Positions 7,160 to 17,580 of a stretch of DNA of 36,114 nucleotides are shown piece by piece. The position numbers were made by a program, and so were the translations under genes. Each line of letters opens with the position of its first letter. Within the stretch, counting starts at the first letter, position 1. Origin of the DNA: Flavipsychrobacter sp. Its GTDB lineage: Bacteria > Bacteroidota > Bacteroidia > Chitinophagales > Chitinophagaceae. The notes under the pieces were generated by a model. The model worked only from the letters and a program-made list of their open reading frames with translations, was not told where the DNA came from and made no database searches. The stretch lies in the NCBI GenBank assembly GCA_025963465.1, contig JAOQAP010000090.1:1-36114 (forward strand), written 5' to 3'.

Positions 7160-7900
7160 ATGAAGAAAATATTCGGGCACCTGGGCAAAGTAGCGTTGAT
7201 GATAAGCGATGGTTTCCGCAAGCCGGAGAACATGAAGGTCTATTGGATCGAGTTTATGGAGCAGTGCAATGACATAGGCATCCGTTCATTGCCCATAGTA
7301 CTCGTTATATCCATATTCCTGGGCATGGTGATGAGCGTTCAGTTTGCCTACCAGCTGGTGAGTCCTATCATATCCAAGTCTGTAATAGGCACCCTCGTAA
7401 GGGACTCTGCAATTCTTGAATTCTGCCCTACTGTTATTTGCATTGTTCTGGCAGGTGTTGTGGGTTCCAAGATAGCCTCTGAGCTGGGTAATATGCGCGT
7501 AAGCGAGCAGATAGACGCACTGGAGATCATGGGCATCAATACCAAATCTTACCTGGTGCTGCCGCGTATCCTCGCATCTATGTTTATGGTACCATGTCTT
7601 ATTGTTATCTCTATAGGCGTGTGTATATGGGGTGGCTACCTCGCGGGTACATTCTCTCACATTCTTACCAGGCAGCAATTCATGGCCGGGCTTACCACCG
7701 GGTTTATTCCATACAACCTGTTCTTTGCCATTATCAAGGCCTTCGTTTTCTCGCTTATCATATCCATCGTGCCGTGCTACTATGGCTACTATGTAGAAGG
7801 CGGTGCACTAGAGATAGGCCGGGCTTCTACCACATCAGTGGTAGTGAGCTGCATACTCATCCTTTTTGCAGATTACGGCACATCTATACTGCTGCTGTAG
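7160..7900 (+). CDS. mlaE: MlaE-family ABC transporter permease (phospholipid/lipid transport)
   Basis: MlaE-type permeases form the inner-membrane channel of MCE/Mla systems, which move phospholipids between the two membranes together with an MlaF ATPase and an MCE (MlaD) protein. The 246-aa length is usual. Five or six hydrophobic segments are visible. The family hallmark EQIDALEIMGI lies near residue 115, followed by the conserved YLVLPR segment. Upstream is the secDF terminator and its own promoter; downstream is another terminator at 7926. The gene therefore appears monocistronic, with no MlaF or MCE gene beside it in this window. The assignment to the MlaE family is firm. Which lipid it carries, and its partners, are not visible. 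Confidence 0.92.
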   Translation: MKKIFGHLGKVALMISDGFRKPENMKVYWIEFMEQCNDIGIRSLPIVLVISIFLGMVMSVQFAYQLVSPIISKSVIGTLVRDSAILEFCPTVICIVLAGVVGSKIASELGNMRVSEQIDALEIMGINTKSYLVLPRILASMFMVPCLIVISIGVCIWGGYLAGTFSHILTRQQFMAGLTTGFIPYNLFFAIIKAFVFSLIISIVPCYYGYYVEGGALEIGRASTTSVVVSCILILFADYGTSILLL

Positions 7901-8210
7901 CGTCTATACAATGCTCAATTTTATTACGGCCTCATTCGGGGCCGTTTTTATTTGATGTCTCAATTTCCTGCATTTACCGCTTAGGAAAGACATCTTTTTA
8001 TTTCAGTTTTTCACCTGTTGAATATTACGGGTTCATTTTGCATTTTTACAAAAAACCCAGTAACCCAGGTAGTGGCAACTTCCGGCACAGTAAGAATGGC
8101 ATCTGACGACAATTATTAAAATCATAAATAAATTACTATTTTACATACCTAACCTTTTTAAAATACCGGTAGCCGAAAAGGAATCAGAGTAGGCATTTAA
8201 ATTGATCGCC
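7901..8210. other. Intergenic region between mlaE and the five-gene cluster (310 bp)
   Basis: Contains the terminator at 7926-7950, then AT-rich DNA. The reading frame that crosses 7594-8106 is an out-of-frame shadow of mlaE and looks spurious. No clean TAnnTTTG box was found before 8211, so the promoter of the following cluster is not identified. Confidence 0.6.
7926..7950 (+). terminator. Rho-independent terminator of mlaE
   Basis: Stem ACGGCC (7926-7931) pairs with GGCCGT (7940-7945), with an 8-nt loop and a T-run. It begins 25 bp after the stop codon. Confidence 0.8.
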
Positions 8211-8450
8211 ATGTTTAATAACGTCGCATTAGATGTTGCTATTGGGCTTGTTTTCATTTTCCTGGTTTACAGTCTTTTAGCTACCACCATTCAAGAGATG
8301 ATCGCAAGGTCTTTCAGCTTACGTGGCCGTATGCTTGTAAAAGGCATAAGGGCAATGCTTGAAGACCGGCATGAGCACTATGAAGGTGGTTTTGTTTTAC
8401 ATAAAAACAGTAGTACGAGCCATCACCAACCCAAAAAACAGGATAAATGA
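8211..8450 (+). CDS. Short membrane protein, first gene of the five-gene cluster
   Basis: The ATG at 8211 is preferred over a TTG at 8202 and gives 79 aa. The N-terminus (MFNNVALDVAIGLVFIFLVY, then SLLATTIQEMIARSF) is one long hydrophobic helix followed by an amphipathic basic stretch. It resembles, from memory, the N-terminus of larger uncharacterised bacterial membrane proteins. After about residue 50 it turns into a hydrophilic tail rich in His, Lys, Ser and Gln and stops. The gene is therefore either a stand-alone short version or a shortened remnant. Its stop overlaps the next start in an ATGA, so the subtilase gene is probably translationally coupled to it. Function unknown; it may anchor or recruit a partner at the inner membrane. 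Confidence 0.65.
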   Translation: MFNNVALDVAIGLVFIFLVYSLLATTIQEMIARSFSLRGRMLVKGIRAMLEDRHEHYEGGFVLHKNSSTSHHQPKKQDK

Positions 8451-9625
8451 TACTGACTGTAAATACGCCGGCTAACATCTACCTGAATATACGAACCGGG
8501 AAACCGTCCACCGAGTCCCCAACCTTCATGTCGCTGAAGGGCGGAGCAAAAGTAGATGTCGTAGATGTTGTTATTGGCTTACCTATAGAAGGCTCTGACA
8601 TCTGGTACAAATGCAAGGACGGTAATTTCTACTGGAGTGGTGGCTTTGATGCTCCCCCTCAGGGATTCACTGCGCAAAACTATATTGAAAAAAAGATAGA
8701 GTTCCTTGCCGATAAAACACAGAAAGACCTGCACTGCAACAGCGCCGATGAAAATAAATGGAAAGTGAGCTGGGGTCACGTGGACATGGAAATATGGAAA
8801 ATATGGAGAGATCATAAAACTAAGGGCGACGGTGTGAAAGTGGCTGTGATAGACGATGGCGTGCATTTTCAAAACAATGACCTGCTTGGCAATATCAAAG
8901 GCAGCGCCTCATTCATAAATAATATCCTGGATGACAATGATCCATTTCACGGAACTATGAGCGCAGGATTGGTAGCAGCTAATTGCCAAAACACAAAAAC
9001 AGTGTATGGCGTTGCACCGGGATGCGACCTGTTTGTTTACAGAGCAGCATCAGTCGGATATTCTATTGATCGGGTTTGTGCCTCTATTCAGAAAGCAGTG
9101 GCTGACGGGGCTAAAATAATTTCCATGAGCTTTTTTATTCCTGATGACCCTACATTGAAAAGCTGGATAGAATTTTGTAACGACAACGGCATAATTATGA
9201 TCGCCGCAGCAGGCGATATTAATACCGGAACTAAAATGTATCCTGCCAGTTATGATCAATGTCTTTCTATAGGAGGATACTACTTATCAAATGAAAAAAC
9301 AAGGCTCATCAATAAAGCTCAGTCAAACAGCAACGATTCATTAACTCTTTTAGGACCTTCTAAAGATGTTTTAACAACATCGCCAACCAGCGCAGTTGCT
9401 TACCATCAGGCAACCAGTTGCGCCTGTGCTTTTATGGCGGGCCTGATTGCGCTGATAGTTTCAAAAGCTCCGTCAACTAATTATTCAAAACTGATCGAGA
9501 CCCTGAACCTGAACACTGCAACAGAATCCATTGAAAAAAATACCCTGAGATCTAACGATGAAGGTTATGGAATTATAAGTCCTTTAAAATTTCTTACCCA
9601 ATTAAATATTCCCAAAATAAAATAG
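8447..9625 (+). CDS. SH3b-subtilisin: S8 family serine peptidase without signal peptide
   Basis: Residues ~1-70 look like a bacterial SH3 (SH3b) domain (NIYLNIRTG, SLKGGAKVDVV, IWYKC, FYWSGG). Residues ~115-390 form a subtilase domain. The triad is Asp136 (VAVIDDGVH), His168 (DPFHGTMSAG) and Ser324 (ATSCACAFMAG). The spacing of Asp, His, oxyanion residue and Ser (32, 89, 67) nearly equals subtilisin (32, 91, 66). Two features are unusual: the oxyanion-hole Asn is Asp257 (IAAAGDINTG), and the usual GTSxAxP is ATSCACAF. No signal peptide is present, so a cytoplasmic location is expected unless a partner exports it. The start overlaps the preceding stop; the next gene starts 2 bp after its stop. 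Active protease is likely, but weak or regulated activity is possible. Confidence 0.88.
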   Translation: MILTVNTPANIYLNIRTGKPSTESPTFMSLKGGAKVDVVDVVIGLPIEGSDIWYKCKDGNFYWSGGFDAPPQGFTAQNYIEKKIEFLADKTQKDLHCNSADENKWKVSWGHVDMEIWKIWRDHKTKGDGVKVAVIDDGVHFQNNDLLGNIKGSASFINNILDDNDPFHGTMSAGLVAANCQNTKTVYGVAPGCDLFVYRAASVGYSIDRVCASIQKAVADGAKIISMSFFIPDDPTLKSWIEFCNDNGIIMIAAAGDINTGTKMYPASYDQCLSIGGYYLSNEKTRLINKAQSNSNDSLTLLGPSKDVLTTSPTSAVAYHQATSCACAFMAGLIALIVSKAPSTNYSKLIETLNLNTATESIEKNTLRSNDEGYGIISPLKFLTQLNIPKIK

Positions 9626-9627
9626 CC

Positions 9628-11913
9628 ATGAGGTCCTTTAAATCCGCGATAATTTTTGTCCTGATCTGCTCATTACCGTTTAAAATCAATGCTCAGATTG
9701 CATACTATGATGCTGTAAATCTCCGTAAATACATAGTATACAATTCAAACAGACCGCCAACTCCGCCAGGAAAACCAATTGCCCCGGAGATCGGTTTTCA
9801 GTTCAATCCTGACTCCATAAATATTGTATTAAAGATTCTTCAGCCATATACAGATAGCTCAAACGGGATCCAATTCCGTACAGCCGGCGGTATTTCAAGT
9901 GCATTCGACTCCAATGTTTTTATTCATAAATATCTGGCGGGATTATCTCTTAGTCCACAAAGTTTGGGTGAAAAGGTCAGTTCGTCCATATCTTCTGTTG
10001 GAGGTATCAACGTCACCAACTTTGCCGATGGGCTTGCTAAATTTCTTGTAGCAAGATTTAAGCAGGAACTTACCATCACTTTCTTCTCAAAATTCAAGAA
10101 CGACATAGAGAAGTCGAAAGACCTGCAGGCTATGTTTCCTGAAACATACAAAACATTACTGGCTATTGACAATATATACCAGTTCAATGCTTACCTGAAT
10201 ACCTTACGGGAATCATTTATAAAAGACATAACAAACCTCTACAGTAATTTCAAGCAATTGGAAAAGCTTGACAAATATCGCAGGCATTTTGAAAAGCATC
10301 CGGAGCTAAGAACAGTTATTGAAAACTCATTCCTGATCATAGACGCCTACTCCAAAGGCATCCATCCCGGGAAAGTGATTGAGCACTATGATACGGCTAA
10401 TATCCGTTTTAAAGATCCTGTCGTTCAACAAAACTTACGAAGCTCAGTAGCGCTATTGAAATTATTTTCCACCTCTTTAAAATCGAGAACAGACAGCAAC
10501 TATTGGGTACCTGAAGATTCAGTAAGGCTATTATTTGAAGACCCGATCAGCATGCAACTCTATTTCGGACTGATTTACCAGCAAAGTAGCGGCATTAAGT
10601 TTATAATAAATAACACCACCCTGCCATTCAATACCATATTGGCTCGTGGTAAGGATTTTGCAGATACAATGGTAAAATACCGGCATTTTATTGAAAAAAT
10701 GTCGGCCCATACCCAGGAGGTGAATGAATATATTACTGAGCTGAAAGGCAAGAAAAAATCTGACATAGATTACAACGACTATTACAAGTTATACAGATCA
10801 TCGCTCGACCTTTTGCAGGATGCATTTACATGCATAGACCTGCCCTATATCAATATGATACATGACAGCACCAAAGAGAAGATACACTTACAAACCAAAA
10901 GGTGGTTCTCAGTGGCAAATAATACCGGTGAACTGTATATAGACATCCGCACTAAGAATTATTCCTCTGCTATAATCAATGCGGTCAGCATCCTCGATAC
11001 TGTTTTGTCGGGCTTCAACGCGGCAGATGACCTGCGCAAACTAAATGCAGACCTTGCTGCAACAAAAAACTCACTGAACACAGCAAGAAAGAGCAGCAAT
11101 GATAGTAAAATGAAGGTTAATAAAATTGTGAAGTACTATTCGAAAAGCAATTCATTCTCCAATATAGCATTTACAGAAACGCTGGAAAGGAAGAAAATAA
11201 ATTCTCAGGACCTTATAGACCAAATGCGATCATTGATCGATCTGAAAAGAACGCAGCTGGATTTCCGCAACCAGGAGAAACTCAGGGGCAATTTGCTAAA
11301 ATACGGCACGTTTGCCGCTACTATAGCTACAGCATCAAACTCAGATGATGTAAAGAACGCAATAGAGACCATCGCGTTGCCATCAGGCAGCGCACGGGTA
11401 AAAAGAGAAAGCGACTGGAATATATCGCTCAATGCCTACGTAGGCGCATTTGTAGGTAATGAAACAATAGATGGCGTTAAGAACAAGCACTGGATCAATG
11501 CATATGGCGTTACCGCTCCTGTTGGTATTGCCATAAGCCGCGGTCATTCCATTTTGTTCATACCGGGCAAAAAAGAAAGATGGACAGATAATAAAGGTGG
11601 ATGGTCCAGCAGCCTGTTTATTTCACTAATAGATGTGGGGGCTATCGCCGCATTCCGTATGAAGGATGATACTACAGCGCAGATACCAACCGTGCAACTT
11701 AAAAATATCATTTCTCCCGGCGTTTTCTACGGCTTAGGAATTCCTAAGTGCCCTGTTTCCTGGAATTTTGGTGCACAGATAGGCCCTAACCTTCGTAAGG
11801 TTGACCCCGCAGCCCTACCCGGAGAAGACCCATCAGACAAAATGTACTGGCGTTTCAGCACATCACTGGTTGTAGACATTCCTGTTCTTAATTTCTATAC
11901 AAGGTCGCACTAA
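9628..11913 (+). CDS. Large exported protein of the five-gene cluster, helical middle and beta-rich C-terminus
   Basis: I do not recognise a named family. A signal peptide is clear (MRSFKSAIIFVLICSLPFKI, ending NA/Q). Residues ~130-590 are mainly helical and rich in Lys, Leu and Ser. A likely coiled coil lies around 475-520 (LRKLNADLAATKNSLNTARK). From ~595 the sequence changes to alternating hydrophobic/aromatic strands (WNISLNAYVGAFVG, GVTAPVGIAIS, SLFISLIDVGAIAAFRM, PGVFYGLGI, WNFGAQIGPNLRKV, RFSTSLVVDIPVLNFYT). That pattern suggests outer-membrane strands or a beta domain packed on the membrane. No T9SS tail is visible. It starts 2 bp after the subtilase stop and ends 11 bp before the next gene. 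A periplasmic or outer-membrane component working with the other cluster genes is an inference. Confidence 0.75.
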   Translation: MRSFKSAIIFVLICSLPFKINAQIAYYDAVNLRKYIVYNSNRPPTPPGKPIAPEIGFQFNPDSINIVLKILQPYTDSSNGIQFRTAGGISSAFDSNVFIHKYLAGLSLSPQSLGEKVSSSISSVGGINVTNFADGLAKFLVARFKQELTITFFSKFKNDIEKSKDLQAMFPETYKTLLAIDNIYQFNAYLNTLRESFIKDITNLYSNFKQLEKLDKYRRHFEKHPELRTVIENSFLIIDAYSKGIHPGKVIEHYDTANIRFKDPVVQQNLRSSVALLKLFSTSLKSRTDSNYWVPEDSVRLLFEDPISMQLYFGLIYQQSSGIKFIINNTTLPFNTILARGKDFADTMVKYRHFIEKMSAHTQEVNEYITELKGKKKSDIDYNDYYKLYRSSLDLLQDAFTCIDLPYINMIHDSTKEKIHLQTKRWFSVANNTGELYIDIRTKNYSSAIINAVSILDTVLSGFNAADDLRKLNADLAATKNSLNTARKSSNDSKMKVNKIVKYYSKSNSFSNIAFTETLERKKINSQDLIDQMRSLIDLKRTQLDFRNQEKLRGNLLKYGTFAATIATASNSDDVKNAIETIALPSGSARVKRESDWNISLNAYVGAFVGNETIDGVKNKHWINAYGVTAPVGIAISRGHSILFIPGKKERWTDNKGGWSSSLFISLIDVGAIAAFRMKDDTTAQIPTVQLKNIISPGVFYGLGIPKCPVSWNFGAQIGPNLRKVDPAALPGEDPSDKMYWRFSTSLVVDIPVLNFYTRSH

Positions 11914-11924
11914 ACTTTATTGTT

Positions 11925-12983
11925 ATGAAAATAGAAGAAGTAATTAAGATCTACGAGTTTTTAGGAAATCTAACTTTAGTGGCATTTTTGGGAGTGTACA
12001 TTTTATTAATGGTAGCATTGCTTGCTTTACTTTTCTCATTAAAAGATAAAATAGTATCAAAAACTCAACCCAAAGACTACTTCAATAATCTCATTTCAGG
12101 CACCACTGCTGTCGTTACGCTATCATTGTGTATTTTATATTACCAGGCTCAAAAAAAGATGAACTTAAGCAAAATTGCCCTACATATAAAATCAGAATTT
12201 GTTTATTCTAATTTCACACAAAAATCATTCAGAAATATAGATTTACCTGGCAATAACGATAGTGCTGCAAAGCTCGAAATGGTAACTGAACTGATCAACA
12301 CATTTCCAAATGAATTTACTTCAGTCAGAATGCCACCAGGTAATAGTCATGATACTTTAGACATAACTGGCATTGCAATAATTGACCCGGTATCTGTAGA
12401 TCAAATTTATAAAACAATAGAAAAGAAAGCCATTTTCGCGTCGTATCTGATAACAAAATTGATAAAGAAAGATTCGCTTGAAATCTTATATACAGATGAT
12501 ATTAACCACCCGTACTCCATACAGGAAAATATAGATAAAGACGGATGGTTTGTTGGACGGGATTTTTTTCAATACATTATTGGAAAGGACAGCCTATTCC
12601 CTGTATACAACAATCAAAAGATAATCGGGTTCACCACATTTTATAAAAATGAAGCCGCTAAGAAAAGATATGAGGCCGCTTACGAGATCATTTTCAAGGA
12701 ATTTAAAAAAAGACCGAATGGCATTATCGGTTTTAAAGCATTAAGAGATAGTACTAAACAGAACTATTCAGATGATTTTTTGAAACAAGCTATCAACAAT
12801 TCAAACGAACAGCTTTATTTTATCAAATTAGAAAATACCGGCAACAACGATACATTAGGTATCAAACTACCCAACAGTTCAATTCGAAAACCTAAAAATA
12901 ATCCACTATATGCGATATTAAACGCTATTGAAAAAACCGTAAAGACATTCATTGAGCAGATAAAAGAAAATGTATTAGTTTAG
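11925..12983 (+). CDS. Unknown membrane-anchored protein of the five-gene cluster
   Basis: Not recognised. Two hydrophobic segments lie near the N-terminus (~15-42, and ~57-71 with TTAVVTLSLCILYY). A soluble domain of about 280 residues with mixed alpha/beta character follows (for example ITGIAIIDPVSVDQIYKTIE, DGWFVGRDFFQYIIGKDS, IGFKALRDSTKQ). No catalytic motif is evident. Codon use is visibly more AT-rich than in the neighbouring house-keeping genes, with many AAA, ATA and TTA codons. The spacing of 11 bp before and 18 bp after supports membership of the same operon. With two TM helices, the large domain would face the same side as the N-terminus. Confidence 0.75.
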   Translation: MKIEEVIKIYEFLGNLTLVAFLGVYILLMVALLALLFSLKDKIVSKTQPKDYFNNLISGTTAVVTLSLCILYYQAQKKMNLSKIALHIKSEFVYSNFTQKSFRNIDLPGNNDSAAKLEMVTELINTFPNEFTSVRMPPGNSHDTLDITGIAIIDPVSVDQIYKTIEKKAIFASYLITKLIKKDSLEILYTDDINHPYSIQENIDKDGWFVGRDFFQYIIGKDSLFPVYNNQKIIGFTTFYKNEAAKKRYEAAYEIIFKEFKKRPNGIIGFKALRDSTKQNYSDDFLKQAINNSNEQLYFIKLENTGNNDTLGIKLPNSSIRKPKNNPLYAILNAIEKTVKTFIEQIKENVLV

Positions 12984-13001
12984 ATAAAAAAATAAATAAC
13001 C

Positions 13002-13790
13002 ATGAGCAACCACATAGTAGTCTTCTGGATAATTTTTGGATTATTGCTTTTCACGATCGTCTATTGCGACAAGAAGTATAATATGCTACGCGATGAGGGA
13101 ACAGCCAGCATAAAAGCTTATAGCTGGTCTCGTGTTCAGCTGGCATGGTGGGTGCTTATCGTGCTTGCTGCATTCATTACTATTATTTTAAGTTACGCGG
13201 GCCACCCTATCCCTACGCTTGACTCATCAACGCTAATATTGCTGGGTATAACTACAGGTACCACTGCTGCAGCACGCCTTATTGATGTGTCAGACCGGCA
13301 AAACCCAAATCTGACCAACACGTTGCAGGACCAAAAGAAAGAAAGCTTTTTCCTGGACATCTTATCCGACTGCAACGGCGTGAGCATGAACAGGCTGCAG
13401 GCGGTGATCTTTAATTTTGTTTTTGGCGCATGGTTCATTTCTTATGTGCTGCAGCATTTTGCAGATCCATCGGCTGCATTATTCCTAACTGTGAACTGCG
13501 CTATATCTCCGGCTGCGGCGAAAGAGTGTGCCGCACAGCCATGGAACTATATAATACCTGTAATGTCGCAGAATAACCTGATACTATTAGGACTTAGCTC
13601 AGCTACATATGCTGCACTGAAAGCAACAGAGAACTCACCAACAGCCAAGGGGATTGCCGAGAACCAACAGTCAGGAGCACTGCCTAATAACAATCAGCCT
13701 AATCCTGCACCTAACTCCGTTCAGGCTCCTCCCCCCGCACCTGATGCAGGCACTACTGATGCAAACAATGAAACAACTACAAATCAATAA
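13002..13790 (+). CDS. Polytopic membrane protein with GIS-T/NGxSxxRLQ repeats and Pro/Asn-rich tail
   Basis: About five hydrophobic segments are visible (~5-22, 44-66, 72-90, 132-152, 185-205). The pattern SRVQLAWW ... LILLGITTGTTAAARLID ... SFFLDILSDCNGVSMNRLQ ... NNLILLGLSSATYAALK matches, from memory, a widespread but uncharacterised bacterial membrane family. In that family an RxQ-(W/F)W helix and a GISxxT helix occur twice. An 'FxxDIxxDxxGxSxxRLQ' loop separates the two halves. The last ~55 residues are a low-complexity Pro/Asn/Ala/Thr tail that could be a flexible contact. It is the last gene of the cluster; the convergent miaA ends 50 bp downstream. Function unknown. Confidence 0.75.
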   Translation: MSNHIVVFWIIFGLLLFTIVYCDKKYNMLRDEGTASIKAYSWSRVQLAWWVLIVLAAFITIILSYAGHPIPTLDSSTLILLGITTGTTAAARLIDVSDRQNPNLTNTLQDQKKESFFLDILSDCNGVSMNRLQAVIFNFVFGAWFISYVLQHFADPSAALFLTVNCAISPAAAKECAAQPWNYIIPVMSQNNLILLGLSSATYAALKATENSPTAKGIAENQQSGALPNNNQPNPAPNSVQAPPPAPDAGTTDANNETTTNQ

Positions 13791-16218: not shown

Positions 16219-17580
16219 CTACTCTTTCACAAAACGCTTTGTTATCCTAAGCCCAGCCGAAGGGTCTACCACATGGACAATATATATGCCTGCAGGTAGC
16301 CCTGCAACATTTATCACTTCTTTCTTTTTTGCTTGCGATATATAGTATACTTCCTGCCCCACCATATTCCACACACTCACATCATTACCTTCAGTACCTT
16401 CTATGGTTAGCTCACCACTCGCTGGGTTTGGGTGTATTTTTATATCGTCCCTTTTCACCTCTGCTATCCCTACATGTAGAGTAGTGTCTCTTACCATACG
16501 GATACGATGATTGTCCATGTCCGCAATGAATATAGTGCCATATTCATCTACCCATACATTGCTGCATCTCATTCTGGCATTTGTTGCAGGGCCGCCATCT
16601 CCAAAATATCCTAAGGTACCTGTTCCCGCAACAGTTGTAATAACTTTTGTTACACCGTCAATTCTTCTTATTGTACCATTACTCTGTTCTGCTATATAAA
16701 AATTATCAAGCTTGTCAATAAATATACCCATAGGATAACCAAGCGTAGCATCAGTTGCAGGACCATCATCTCCGGTATGTCCCATAGTTCCGCTCCCTGC
16801 TACAGTTGTAATAATTCCGGTTGAGGCATCCACTTTACGTATTCTCTGGTTTGTTTGATCGCAGATAATCATATTGCCTGCTATATCTGCAAATACCTGT
16901 ATAGGGCCATTTAACGAAGCACTAGTTGCCGGGCCGCCGTCACCAAAATAAGCAGCAATACCATTACCCGCTATCGTAGTAATAATGCCGGTAGTGGCCG
17001 ATACTTTTCTAATCCTATGATTTGAATAGTCAGCTATAAAGATGTTGCCTGGCTTATCTACGTAAAGACCGCTAGGATTATTTAATCGCGCATCTGTTGA
17101 AGGACCGCCATCGCCACTCGCATTCCCTAGATTGATTCCACTTGGCCCACTTCCTGCTACCGTATTTATAATACCATTTGATTTTGTTATTTTACGTATT
17201 CTATTATTTCCCGCATCTGTTATGTATACATTTTCAGCAGTGTCTGTAAAAACTGTTTCAGGGATAAATAGTTGAGCGTTGGTTGCTTGACCTCCATCTC
17301 CTCCTAAAGCTGGCGTACCATCTCCAGCTATAGTAGTAATAATGCCGGTCGCTAATACAACCTTCCTGATTCGGTGATTAAAAGCATCAGCTATATACAT
17401 ATTCCCTTTGCCATCAAGGCAAAAACCATCGGGAGTATTCAATTCAGCACTTGTTGCTTGTCCGTTATCTCCACTATAAGCTGCATTGCCATCACCACAA
17501 ATTGTAGTAATAATATTTACCTGCGCATGCATCTTCCAGCAAGTACACGTAAATAACAATATTAAAAGCCATCTTATCAT
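16219..17580 (-). CDS. Secreted NHL-repeat beta-propeller with T9SS sorting tail
   Basis: Signal peptide MIRWLLILLFTCTCWKMHA/Q. About six NHL repeats fill residues ~20-370. Each has the pattern GIITTIAGxG...GDGGxATxAxLxxP followed by DxxGNxYIADxxNxRIRKV. The tail IHPNPASGELTIEG... AGLPAGIYIVHVV...ITKRFVKE is a T9SS sorting domain. NHL propellers are protein- or ligand-binding platforms, so a surface or secreted binding role is expected; no enzymatic motif is seen. The ATG overlaps the stop of the upstream lipoprotein gene (ATGA), indicating coupled translation. Confidence 0.9.
   Translation of the reverse strand: MIRWLLILLFTCTCWKMHAQVNIITTICGDGNAAYSGDNGQATSAELNTPDGFCLDGKGNMYIADAFNHRIRKVVLATGIITTIAGDGTPALGGDGGQATNAQLFIPETVFTDTAENVYITDAGNNRIRKITKSNGIINTVAGSGPSGINLGNASGDGGPSTDARLNNPSGLYVDKPGNIFIADYSNHRIRKVSATTGIITTIAGNGIAAYFGDGGPATSASLNGPIQVFADIAGNMIICDQTNQRIRKVDASTGIITTVAGSGTMGHTGDDGPATDATLGYPMGIFIDKLDNFYIAEQSNGTIRRIDGVTKVITTVAGTGTLGYFGDGGPATNARMRCSNVWVDEYGTIFIADMDNHRIRMVRDTTLHVGIAEVKRDDIKIHPNPASGELTIEGTEGNDVSVWNMVGQEVYYISQAKKKEVINVAGLPAGIYIVHVVDPSAGLRITKRFVKE

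Follow-up and report, generated by a model that had tools for sequence, protein, structure and literature searches.

In many Bacteroidota, a three-gene cassette seems to hold an interchangeable protein- or wall-cutting enzyme inside the membrane through a short, glycine-ended tail. The cassette comprises a three-helix membrane protein (family A), a leaderless hydrolase with an SH3-like domain and an exported protein (family C). A divergent, atypical copy lies in the 36,114-nt contig JAOQAP010000090.1 of a Flavipsychrobacter sp. (the whole stretch analysed, called the window below; its genome assembly is 4.18 Mb and 97.5% complete). As a whole, a modular cassette with a tail-docked latent effector is the explanation that we find best, with confidence slightly past the halfway mark. 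A sequence-only reading of the window had described five plus-strand genes with junctions of -4, 2, 11 and 18 bp, and these match the list of open reading frames (ORFs) exactly. The genes, w1 to w5, are as follows; gene maps here and below come from our own ORF picking, in which start sites and small genes are approximate.

8211..8450, + strand: w1, 79 amino acids (aa) from an ATG, or 82 aa from the TTG at 8202 (ORF list)
8211-8417, + strand: the part of w1 that matches profile positions 1-63 of 354; a putative N-terminal remnant of family A, C-terminal tail absent
8447..9625, + strand: w2, leaderless SH3-subtilase, 392 aa; S8 domain at residues 127-375, triad D136/H168/S324 intact
8447..8671, + strand: SH3-like domain of w2, about residues 1-75; match to our SH3 profile (A5) at 8462-8665, E 2.3e-22
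9628..11913, + strand: w3, the C protein, exported, 761 aa; predicted helical region at about 133-582 and beta-rich end at about 595-760
11925..12983, + strand: w4, an orphan outside the conserved module, 352 aa; one or two N-terminal membrane helices
13002..13790, + strand: w5, multi-helix membrane protein of the GIS-T / RLQ family, 262 aa; its tail ends in TTTNQ, with no terminal glycine

Judged from sequence comparison, the existence of an A-enzyme-C module is nearly certain. A search with the C alignment gave 57 named C loci (numbered here with L), all with Bacteroidota record titles except one Williamsia, and the Williamsia-titled record (L105) matches a genome in the window's own family (L105/L077, G134). 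Upstream of C lies a subtilase (S8) gene at 40 of these loci (at L097 with a 52-aa ORF between), an A-type gene without a separate enzyme at eight (L104 being a weak match), and neither at nine, among which contig ends truncate three or more. Ahead of the S8 gene in the 40 S8-C loci, we found A in 25, six of them with another SH3-enzyme between, and a w5-family gene in one (L124, Parachryseolinea). Most junctions within the module fall between -8 and +18 bp. Several genomes appear twice, under a named and an unnamed locus (L093/L076, L105/L077, L113/L073, L111/L062 and L149/L063, among others). Across 147 genomes of the window's family, A is present in 31 and C in 24, and the two occur together in 16 where 5.1 would be expected.

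These neighbourhoods bear out the association with the subtilase across Bacteroidota that the sequence-only reading had proposed to check, and they narrow its other proposals. The five genes do not form one unit: the conserved unit has three, with w4 an orphan, w1 a remnant and w5 an alternative to A. Of the proposed intracellular protease controlled by membrane partners, the part that stands is the protease itself, which is leaderless, precedes C at the 40 loci and has A or w5 ahead of it in 26 of those; the part that falls is the all-five-gene unit. Because the enzyme is leaderless and its gene keeps company with those of membrane partners and of the exported 761-aa protein, an intracellular protease held by membrane partners remains a good reading; the signalling or defence purpose suggested for it is a conjecture.

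By comparison of loci, the enzyme position of the module is swappable. Besides S8 proteases, the SH3-enzymes beside A or w5 include a trypsin-like protease (L059) and glycoside hydrolases of families GH25 (L062), GH46 (L066, L095, L235) and GH19 (L070); amidases of the Amidase_2 family (L009, L197, L231, L233, L234) lie beside A, w5 or a third type of membrane protein first seen at L231. Two further SH3-enzymes are trypsin-like and score below the Pfam cut-offs (L058, L067), and another SH3 group has no catalytic Pfam match (L065, L071, L122, L232). The SH3-like domain is N-terminal in the enzymes but C-terminal in the amidases, and some operons encode two SH3-enzymes. Other hydrolases occur around A and C as well. 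A C70 papain-like gene precedes C at loci without A, directly in L082 and with one gene between in L080. Patatin-like phospholipase genes directly follow C in L103 and L110 and lie downstream in the A operon of L183, where A has no SH3 partner; likewise, A has a GH108 gene two genes away in L092. On the minus strand of L241 (2583-4993), A, again with no SH3 partner, is followed by an amidohydrolase and then by a Tle1-like phospholipase (PF09994, E 4.1e-70), whose family takes its name from type VI effectors.

Two A queries matched 12 and 13 plasmid records, from Pseudomonadota, Cyanobacteriota, one Bacteroidota and one Nonomuraea; two w5-family queries matched none. In eight regions inspected from the 12 matches, the gene that immediately follows A is annotated as an amidase in Caballeronia and Hymenobacter, the gene that immediately precedes it is annotated as a patatin or a cell-wall hydrolase in two Rhizobium records, and the other four regions have haloperoxidase, metallo-hydrolase, mobile-element or unnamed neighbours. 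As a side observation, Rhizobium and Paracoccus plasmids (L152, L153) carry an annotated vanadium-dependent haloperoxidase and similar-looking unnamed genes upstream of A; these abut A in L152 and are separated from it by two small genes in L153.

At seven of the named loci (L093, L096, L105, L108, L110, L113, L146), a fused A of 684-848 aa lies directly before C with no separate enzyme. We modelled the L093 protein (mean predicted local distance difference test score, pLDDT, 78.7; predicted TM-score 0.51) as a helical A part with a beta-rich tail, and the Foldseek matches of this tail are trypsin-fold proteases (Deg2, E 9.5e-4; SplA; V8; probability 1.00). A Pfam scan of three of the fused tails (L093, L105, L113) recognized nothing, and in the six tails other than that of L093 we identified H, D and GDSG-type motifs by eye. 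Thus the C-terminus of all seven long A proteins looks like a trypsin-type protease, with the fold modelled for L093 only.

The feature that unites the separate enzymes is the SH3-like domain. In w2 it stands ahead of a strong Peptidase_S8 match (PF00082, E 1.1e-29), whose triad columns are conserved across the aligned sequences, w2 among them (D in 35/36, H in 36/36, S in 36/36), and the w2 N-terminus is not signal-like by a hydrophobicity rule, as expected from the earlier description of a protease without signal peptide. By the same rule, a signal-like N-terminus is missing in 51 of 52 SH3-enzymes. Similarity of the domain to described ones stays below cut-off or weak: w2 scores 13.2 bits (E 0.11) against SH3_3, and its counterparts in L231 and L232 score 25.5 and 25.9 bits, where the Pfam cut-off is 27; the best PDB match of the SH3 profile is an SH3-like cell-wall binding domain, weakly (E 0.028). 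The A5 alignment shows that the domain in w2 is common to hydrolases of other families beside A or w5. It is found in 19 of the 147 genomes, and the 24 matches of the A5 profile there comprise 15 beside A, five in the second enzyme of such operons, three beside w5 and one beside an L231-type protein. Since this profile was built mostly from A-adjacent enzymes, the A-adjacent matches are partly circular; the scarcity of matches elsewhere is not. The four matches away from A can be rejected as strays, as three adjoin w5 and one adjoins another membrane protein, and the three that adjoin w5 genes tie w5 to the same system.

Membrane proteins encoded next to an SH3-enzyme share a terminal glycine. 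Counting identical last 80 residues once, and excluding A proteins under 250 aa and w5 proteins under 150 aa, we found this glycine in 30 of 31 unfused A proteins followed by an SH3-enzyme, compared with 5 of 41 unfused A proteins with no such enzyme next and none of the seven fused ones. The w5 family behaves similarly (5/5 with an SH3-enzyme versus 0/7 otherwise), and the third-type membrane protein before the SH3-amidase of L231 ends in EEKAVG; profile comparison among the A, w5 and L231-type proteins detected no similarity. In the SH3-partnered unfused A proteins, the tail after the FWFD motif is of low complexity, has a median of 45 residues and ends in -EEAVG, -xRVG, -DIKG and similar; where no SH3-enzyme follows, the tail is shorter (median 27, range 10-98). 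As controls, SH3-enzyme-to-C junctions have the glycine in 0 of 28 cases and other close gene pairs in 9 of 180. Four of the five glycine-ended A proteins scored as lacking an SH3 partner (L060, L143-L145) have a below-threshold or remnant SH3 domain, and L239 does not.

Across 32 pairs, tail differences correlate more closely with differences in SH3 (r 0.63) than with those in the A body (r 0.32). The tail-SH3 correlation persists beyond A-body similarity (partial r 0.58), a value reached in none of 2000 permutations. Together, these comparisons suggest that the glycine-ended tail is where the SH3-like domain docks, which we regard as fairly probable. Separately, at L102, an SH3-S8-C locus without A, a 297-aa two-helix protein encoded after C ends in -ILEG and could be another tail carrier.

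For docking, tail and enzyme would have to meet in the same compartment. Mean lysine and arginine counts over 66 A proteins are 0.06 at the N-terminus, 3.98 after helix 1, 4.92 before and 3.56 after helix 2, and 3.27 before and 4.09 after helix 3, which favours a topology with the N-terminus outside and the C-terminal tail in the cytoplasm. With these counts and the leaderless enzymes, the A tail and the SH3-enzymes would lie on the same, cytoplasmic side. As the earlier description of w3 as a 761-aa exported protein with a beta-rich end had it, w3 has a signal-like N-terminus and an AlphaFold2 model (mean pLDDT 78.4) that is beta-rich at about 595-760; of the 74 C proteins, the hydrophobicity rule assigns such an N-terminus to 71. 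A fold search of the PDB with C gave no match at E <= 0.001. C probably spans the periplasm and the outer membrane, with its end as a putative outer-membrane barrel.

From these parts we propose the following mechanism. A would be an inner-membrane protein with its tail in the cytoplasm, and the leaderless hydrolase encoded beside it would dock through its SH3-like domain on the glycine-ended tail of A, or of the w5-type protein that replaces it. Once docked, the enzyme would wait at the envelope's inner face as a latent effector. More speculatively, C and the membrane partner might sense a change and thereby free or activate the enzyme against the cell's own proteins or wall, with lysis or abortive infection as the outcome. 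A broader version is that bacteria use the tail and domain as a plug-and-socket code: tails with a terminal glycine, carried by three types of inner-membrane protein that share no detectable similarity, would be read by the SH3-like domain of at least six Pfam families of leaderless hydrolases. The enzymes would thus be held at the envelope's inner face as exchangeable lethal effectors, linked to C or another exported protein as the sensor. We put this forward tentatively and would not yet back it over its negation. If true, this would be an undescribed way to arm the inner membrane with exchangeable enzymes using a short peptide code. It would give functions to the unnamed families A, C and w5, explain the leaderless wall hydrolases and proteases beside them, and link these families to lysis, defence or injection-particle release in environmental bacteria.

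Several observations weigh against this proposal. Neither A nor w5 stands ahead of the enzyme in 14 of the 40 S8-C loci, and 6 of the 52 SH3-enzymes have no A, w5 or glycine-ended membrane protein upstream (L100, L102, L119, L120, L139, L141). The tails of L107, L064/L136 and L142 end in alanine; L064 and L142, scored as lacking an SH3-enzyme, may carry one. In the window, none of the five proteins ends in the tail. The difference in charge around helix 2 of A is small (4.9 before, 3.6 after) and is the weakest point of the topology. Fisher values for the tail counts ignore relatedness. Since the DNA encoding the tail adjoins that for an N-terminal SH3-like domain, the two may be transferred jointly and need not bind; in five amidases, the SH3-like domain is encoded at the opposite end of the gene, and the glycine is still present. 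Cytoplasmic synthesis of wall hydrolases would be just as compatible with export.

We nevertheless favour, narrowly, a latent membrane-held effector over export, over lysis for particle release and over ordinary proteolysis. In an export device, the SH3-like domain would be an export tag, A or w5 would receive the enzyme, and C would carry it through the periplasm and outer membrane to prey, neighbours or the cell surface. Hydrolases of peptidoglycan, chitosan and chitin make little sense in the cytoplasm, and the 51 enzymes without signal peptide are encoded between an inner-membrane gene and, often, an exported gene with a beta-rich end; the patatin (L183), Tle1-like (L241, two genes away) and GH108 (L092, two genes away) neighbours of A are also of the kind expected in antagonism. 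However, we recognized no ATPase or channel-like protein in the cassette, A has only three helices, the trypsin-like domain is covalently part of A at seven loci and could not be exported, and a protease, as the most frequent enzyme is, would fit inside the cell as well. We consider export unlikely. Of similarly low probability, in our estimate, is membrane-tethered regulated proteolysis or envelope quality control of an ordinary sort, with the wall hydrolases as lineage-specific add-ons. It accounts for the subtilase, with its intact triad, being the commonest enzyme before C (40/57), and the two-membrane layout would suit envelope-stress sensing, but GH25, GH46, GH19 and amidase enzymes share the SH3-like domain and face the same tails, and the patchy distribution of A (31/147) and C (24/147) is unlike that of housekeeping genes. 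Finally, the terminal glycine could be a by-product of translation coupling between mere neighbours, with a GGN codon serving as the ribosome-binding sequence for the next gene, as A stops -8 to +18 bp from the SH3-enzyme start and GGA, GGT, GGC or GGG precedes the stop. This is very improbable: SH3-enzyme-to-C junctions, with gaps of -8 to 20 bp, and other close pairs show the low glycine counts given above, the glycine is also present in w5 pairs with gaps of 9-33 bp, and A without an SH3 partner mostly lacks it.

A further alternative is a self-lysis cassette, in which the SH3-hydrolases would act as lysins on holin-like anchors formed by A or w5 and would free extracellular contractile injection system (eCIS) particles or further products of the cytoplasm. 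Release of eCIS particles is said to follow cell lysis (PMC8213781). The eCIS marker PF14065 is present in 34 of the 147 genomes, including 20 of the 31 with A (7.2 expected, p 1.4e-8) and 14 of the 24 with C (5.6 expected), while the controls are flat (A-Cas1, 13 versus 10.8 expected; A-condensation, 4 versus 3.6 expected); these statistics ignore relatedness. In L184 and L185, Bacteroidota genomes of one genus, A is immediately followed by a DUF4255-like gene, and a tail-sheath-like gene is close by (both identified by eye); A thus seems to border a contractile injection system cluster. Against this, 11 of the 31 A genomes have no PF14065 match, nor does the window's genome, in which other eCIS core genes were not searched for. 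The condensation family itself leans to eCIS (8/17 versus 3.9 expected, p 0.019), so part of the association may reflect genome size. Proteases would be odd lysins, and the physical linkage is confined to two genomes of one genus. We thus hold this alternative, too, to be improbable.

Among known systems, none matches several of the cassette proteins in Pfam, NCBIfam or PADLOC. For the five genes, the Pfam and NCBIfam models above cut-off name the subtilase only, in line with the earlier view that the cluster fits no known pathway, and none exceeds its cut-off for the scanned members of A, C and w5 (for w5 in Pfam, the window copy only). In PADLOC, w2 matches the generic 'subtilase' model (E 1.9e-18), w1 only PD-Lambda-5_A (E 0.005), and w3, w4 and w5 nothing. 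From ten relatives, the trypsin-like enzyme of L059 matches RT-Protease_XI (E 1e-9) and the fused L093 matches LmuA (E 0.003), with no match for the other A, w5 and C proteins. We rejected a type VII mycosin for w2 (TIGR03921, 117.4 bits against an equivalog cut-off of 278.75; no search for ESX neighbours was made). IetAS resembles the cassette in its leaderless S8 protease, with weak IetS matches (E 1.9e-4 in PADLOC, 5.5e-4 in NCBIfam), but the IetS score is 18.3 bits against a cut-off of 900, and no counterpart of the IetA ATPase is among the window's five genes. Gasdermin-protease systems, in which a protease cuts the bacterial gasdermin encoded beside it, are a further lead; neither w3 nor the scanned relatives from A and C reached a Pfam cut-off.

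Phage holin-endolysin-spanin cassettes place leaderless, SH3-bearing wall hydrolases beside a membrane protein and an envelope protein. The arrangement described here is similar, but proteases are the main enzymes of the A-enzyme-C cassette, and a typical holin is smaller than A. A single query each from w5 and A had no match in 50,697 phage records, and viral contigs hold one A relative and no C relative, so that a phage origin is disfavoured. The sole viral-contig relative (L245, a 9330-base IMG/VR contig presumed viral from that database only) is 578 aa long and adjoins an 839-aa ORF at the contig end.

Similar in logic are the EAD (effector-associated domain) or Death-like systems described by Aravind and colleagues, in which a small adaptor recruits many effector enzymes, including trypsin-like proteases and hydrolases (PMC8195603). 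There, too, an adaptor module brings alternative effectors to one core; the cassette differs in using an SH3-like domain and a membrane-protein C-terminal tail in place of homotypic EADs, in having no recognized NTPase and in having an exported partner. CisA of the Streptomyces contractile injection system sits in the membrane and has an unstructured portion in the cytoplasm; it has been proposed to bring a lethal cytoplasmic machine to the membrane (PMC12237407). A resembles it by this description, but CisA has one membrane helix and A three, A pairs with hydrolases, and the window's genome has no PF14065 match. The SH3b domain of lysostaphin reportedly binds pentaglycine (PMC6461655), a precedent for an SH3b domain recognizing a glycine peptide; its target is the extracellular cell wall, and the resemblance of the cassette domain to SH3-like PDB chains is weak (best E 0.028). 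Among the matches listed from the open-licence literature, none deals, judging by title and opening of the abstract, with the A, C and w5 families; subscription papers and preprints lay outside this scope, so a description elsewhere is possible.

Within the window, the enzyme and C look intact, with a conserved triad and open frames, and the anchor is a stump. The 79-aa w1 aligns only with the first 50-60 or so residues of far longer proteins, mostly 350-850 aa, in the 147 genomes. The full-family A profile (A2, 30 sequences) covers just positions 1-63 of 354, and a three-frame scan of 8101-9700 found no further piece of A. By this alignment, w1 is a truncated relative, the N-terminal stump of A; alternatively, it may be a functional mini-form or reflect an assembly fault in the window. 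The sequence-only reading recognized neither this truncation nor the orphan status of w4. The C gene at L199 (5846-9875) is likewise preceded by a truncated A, about 60 residues long and of almost equal extent, with no enzyme-sized ORF between the two, and this locus looks like a decaying cassette. Given the stump and the absence of the tail from all five proteins, the window copy is perhaps decaying too, or re-wired to w5.

The w5 protein belongs, as first noticed from its motifs, to a recognizable membrane family: GIT-GT and NGxSxxRLQ are present and align with 11 relatives. By comparison of loci, this family stands in for A in other genomes and is not a constant partner. A contig search with w5 alone gave no match; the C alignment found the loci. 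For w4, one of 60 searched genomes, its own, has a match; its similarity to the surface-exclusion protein ExcA in NCBIfam (E 0.0011, 18.4 bits against a cut-off of 100) is too weak to accept. An mlaE-like gene (identified by eye in relatives) borders a w5-amidase cassette in the congener L009 and an A without SH3 partner in the congener L075. Cassette versions in this neighbourhood (7160-8210 in the window, L009, L075) thus differ between three genomes of a single genus, which suggests a site of turnover. Elsewhere in the window, at 16219-17580 on the minus strand, an NHL-repeat protein carries a Por secretion tail (PF18962, E 2.5e-10) and is a probable type IX secretion substrate.

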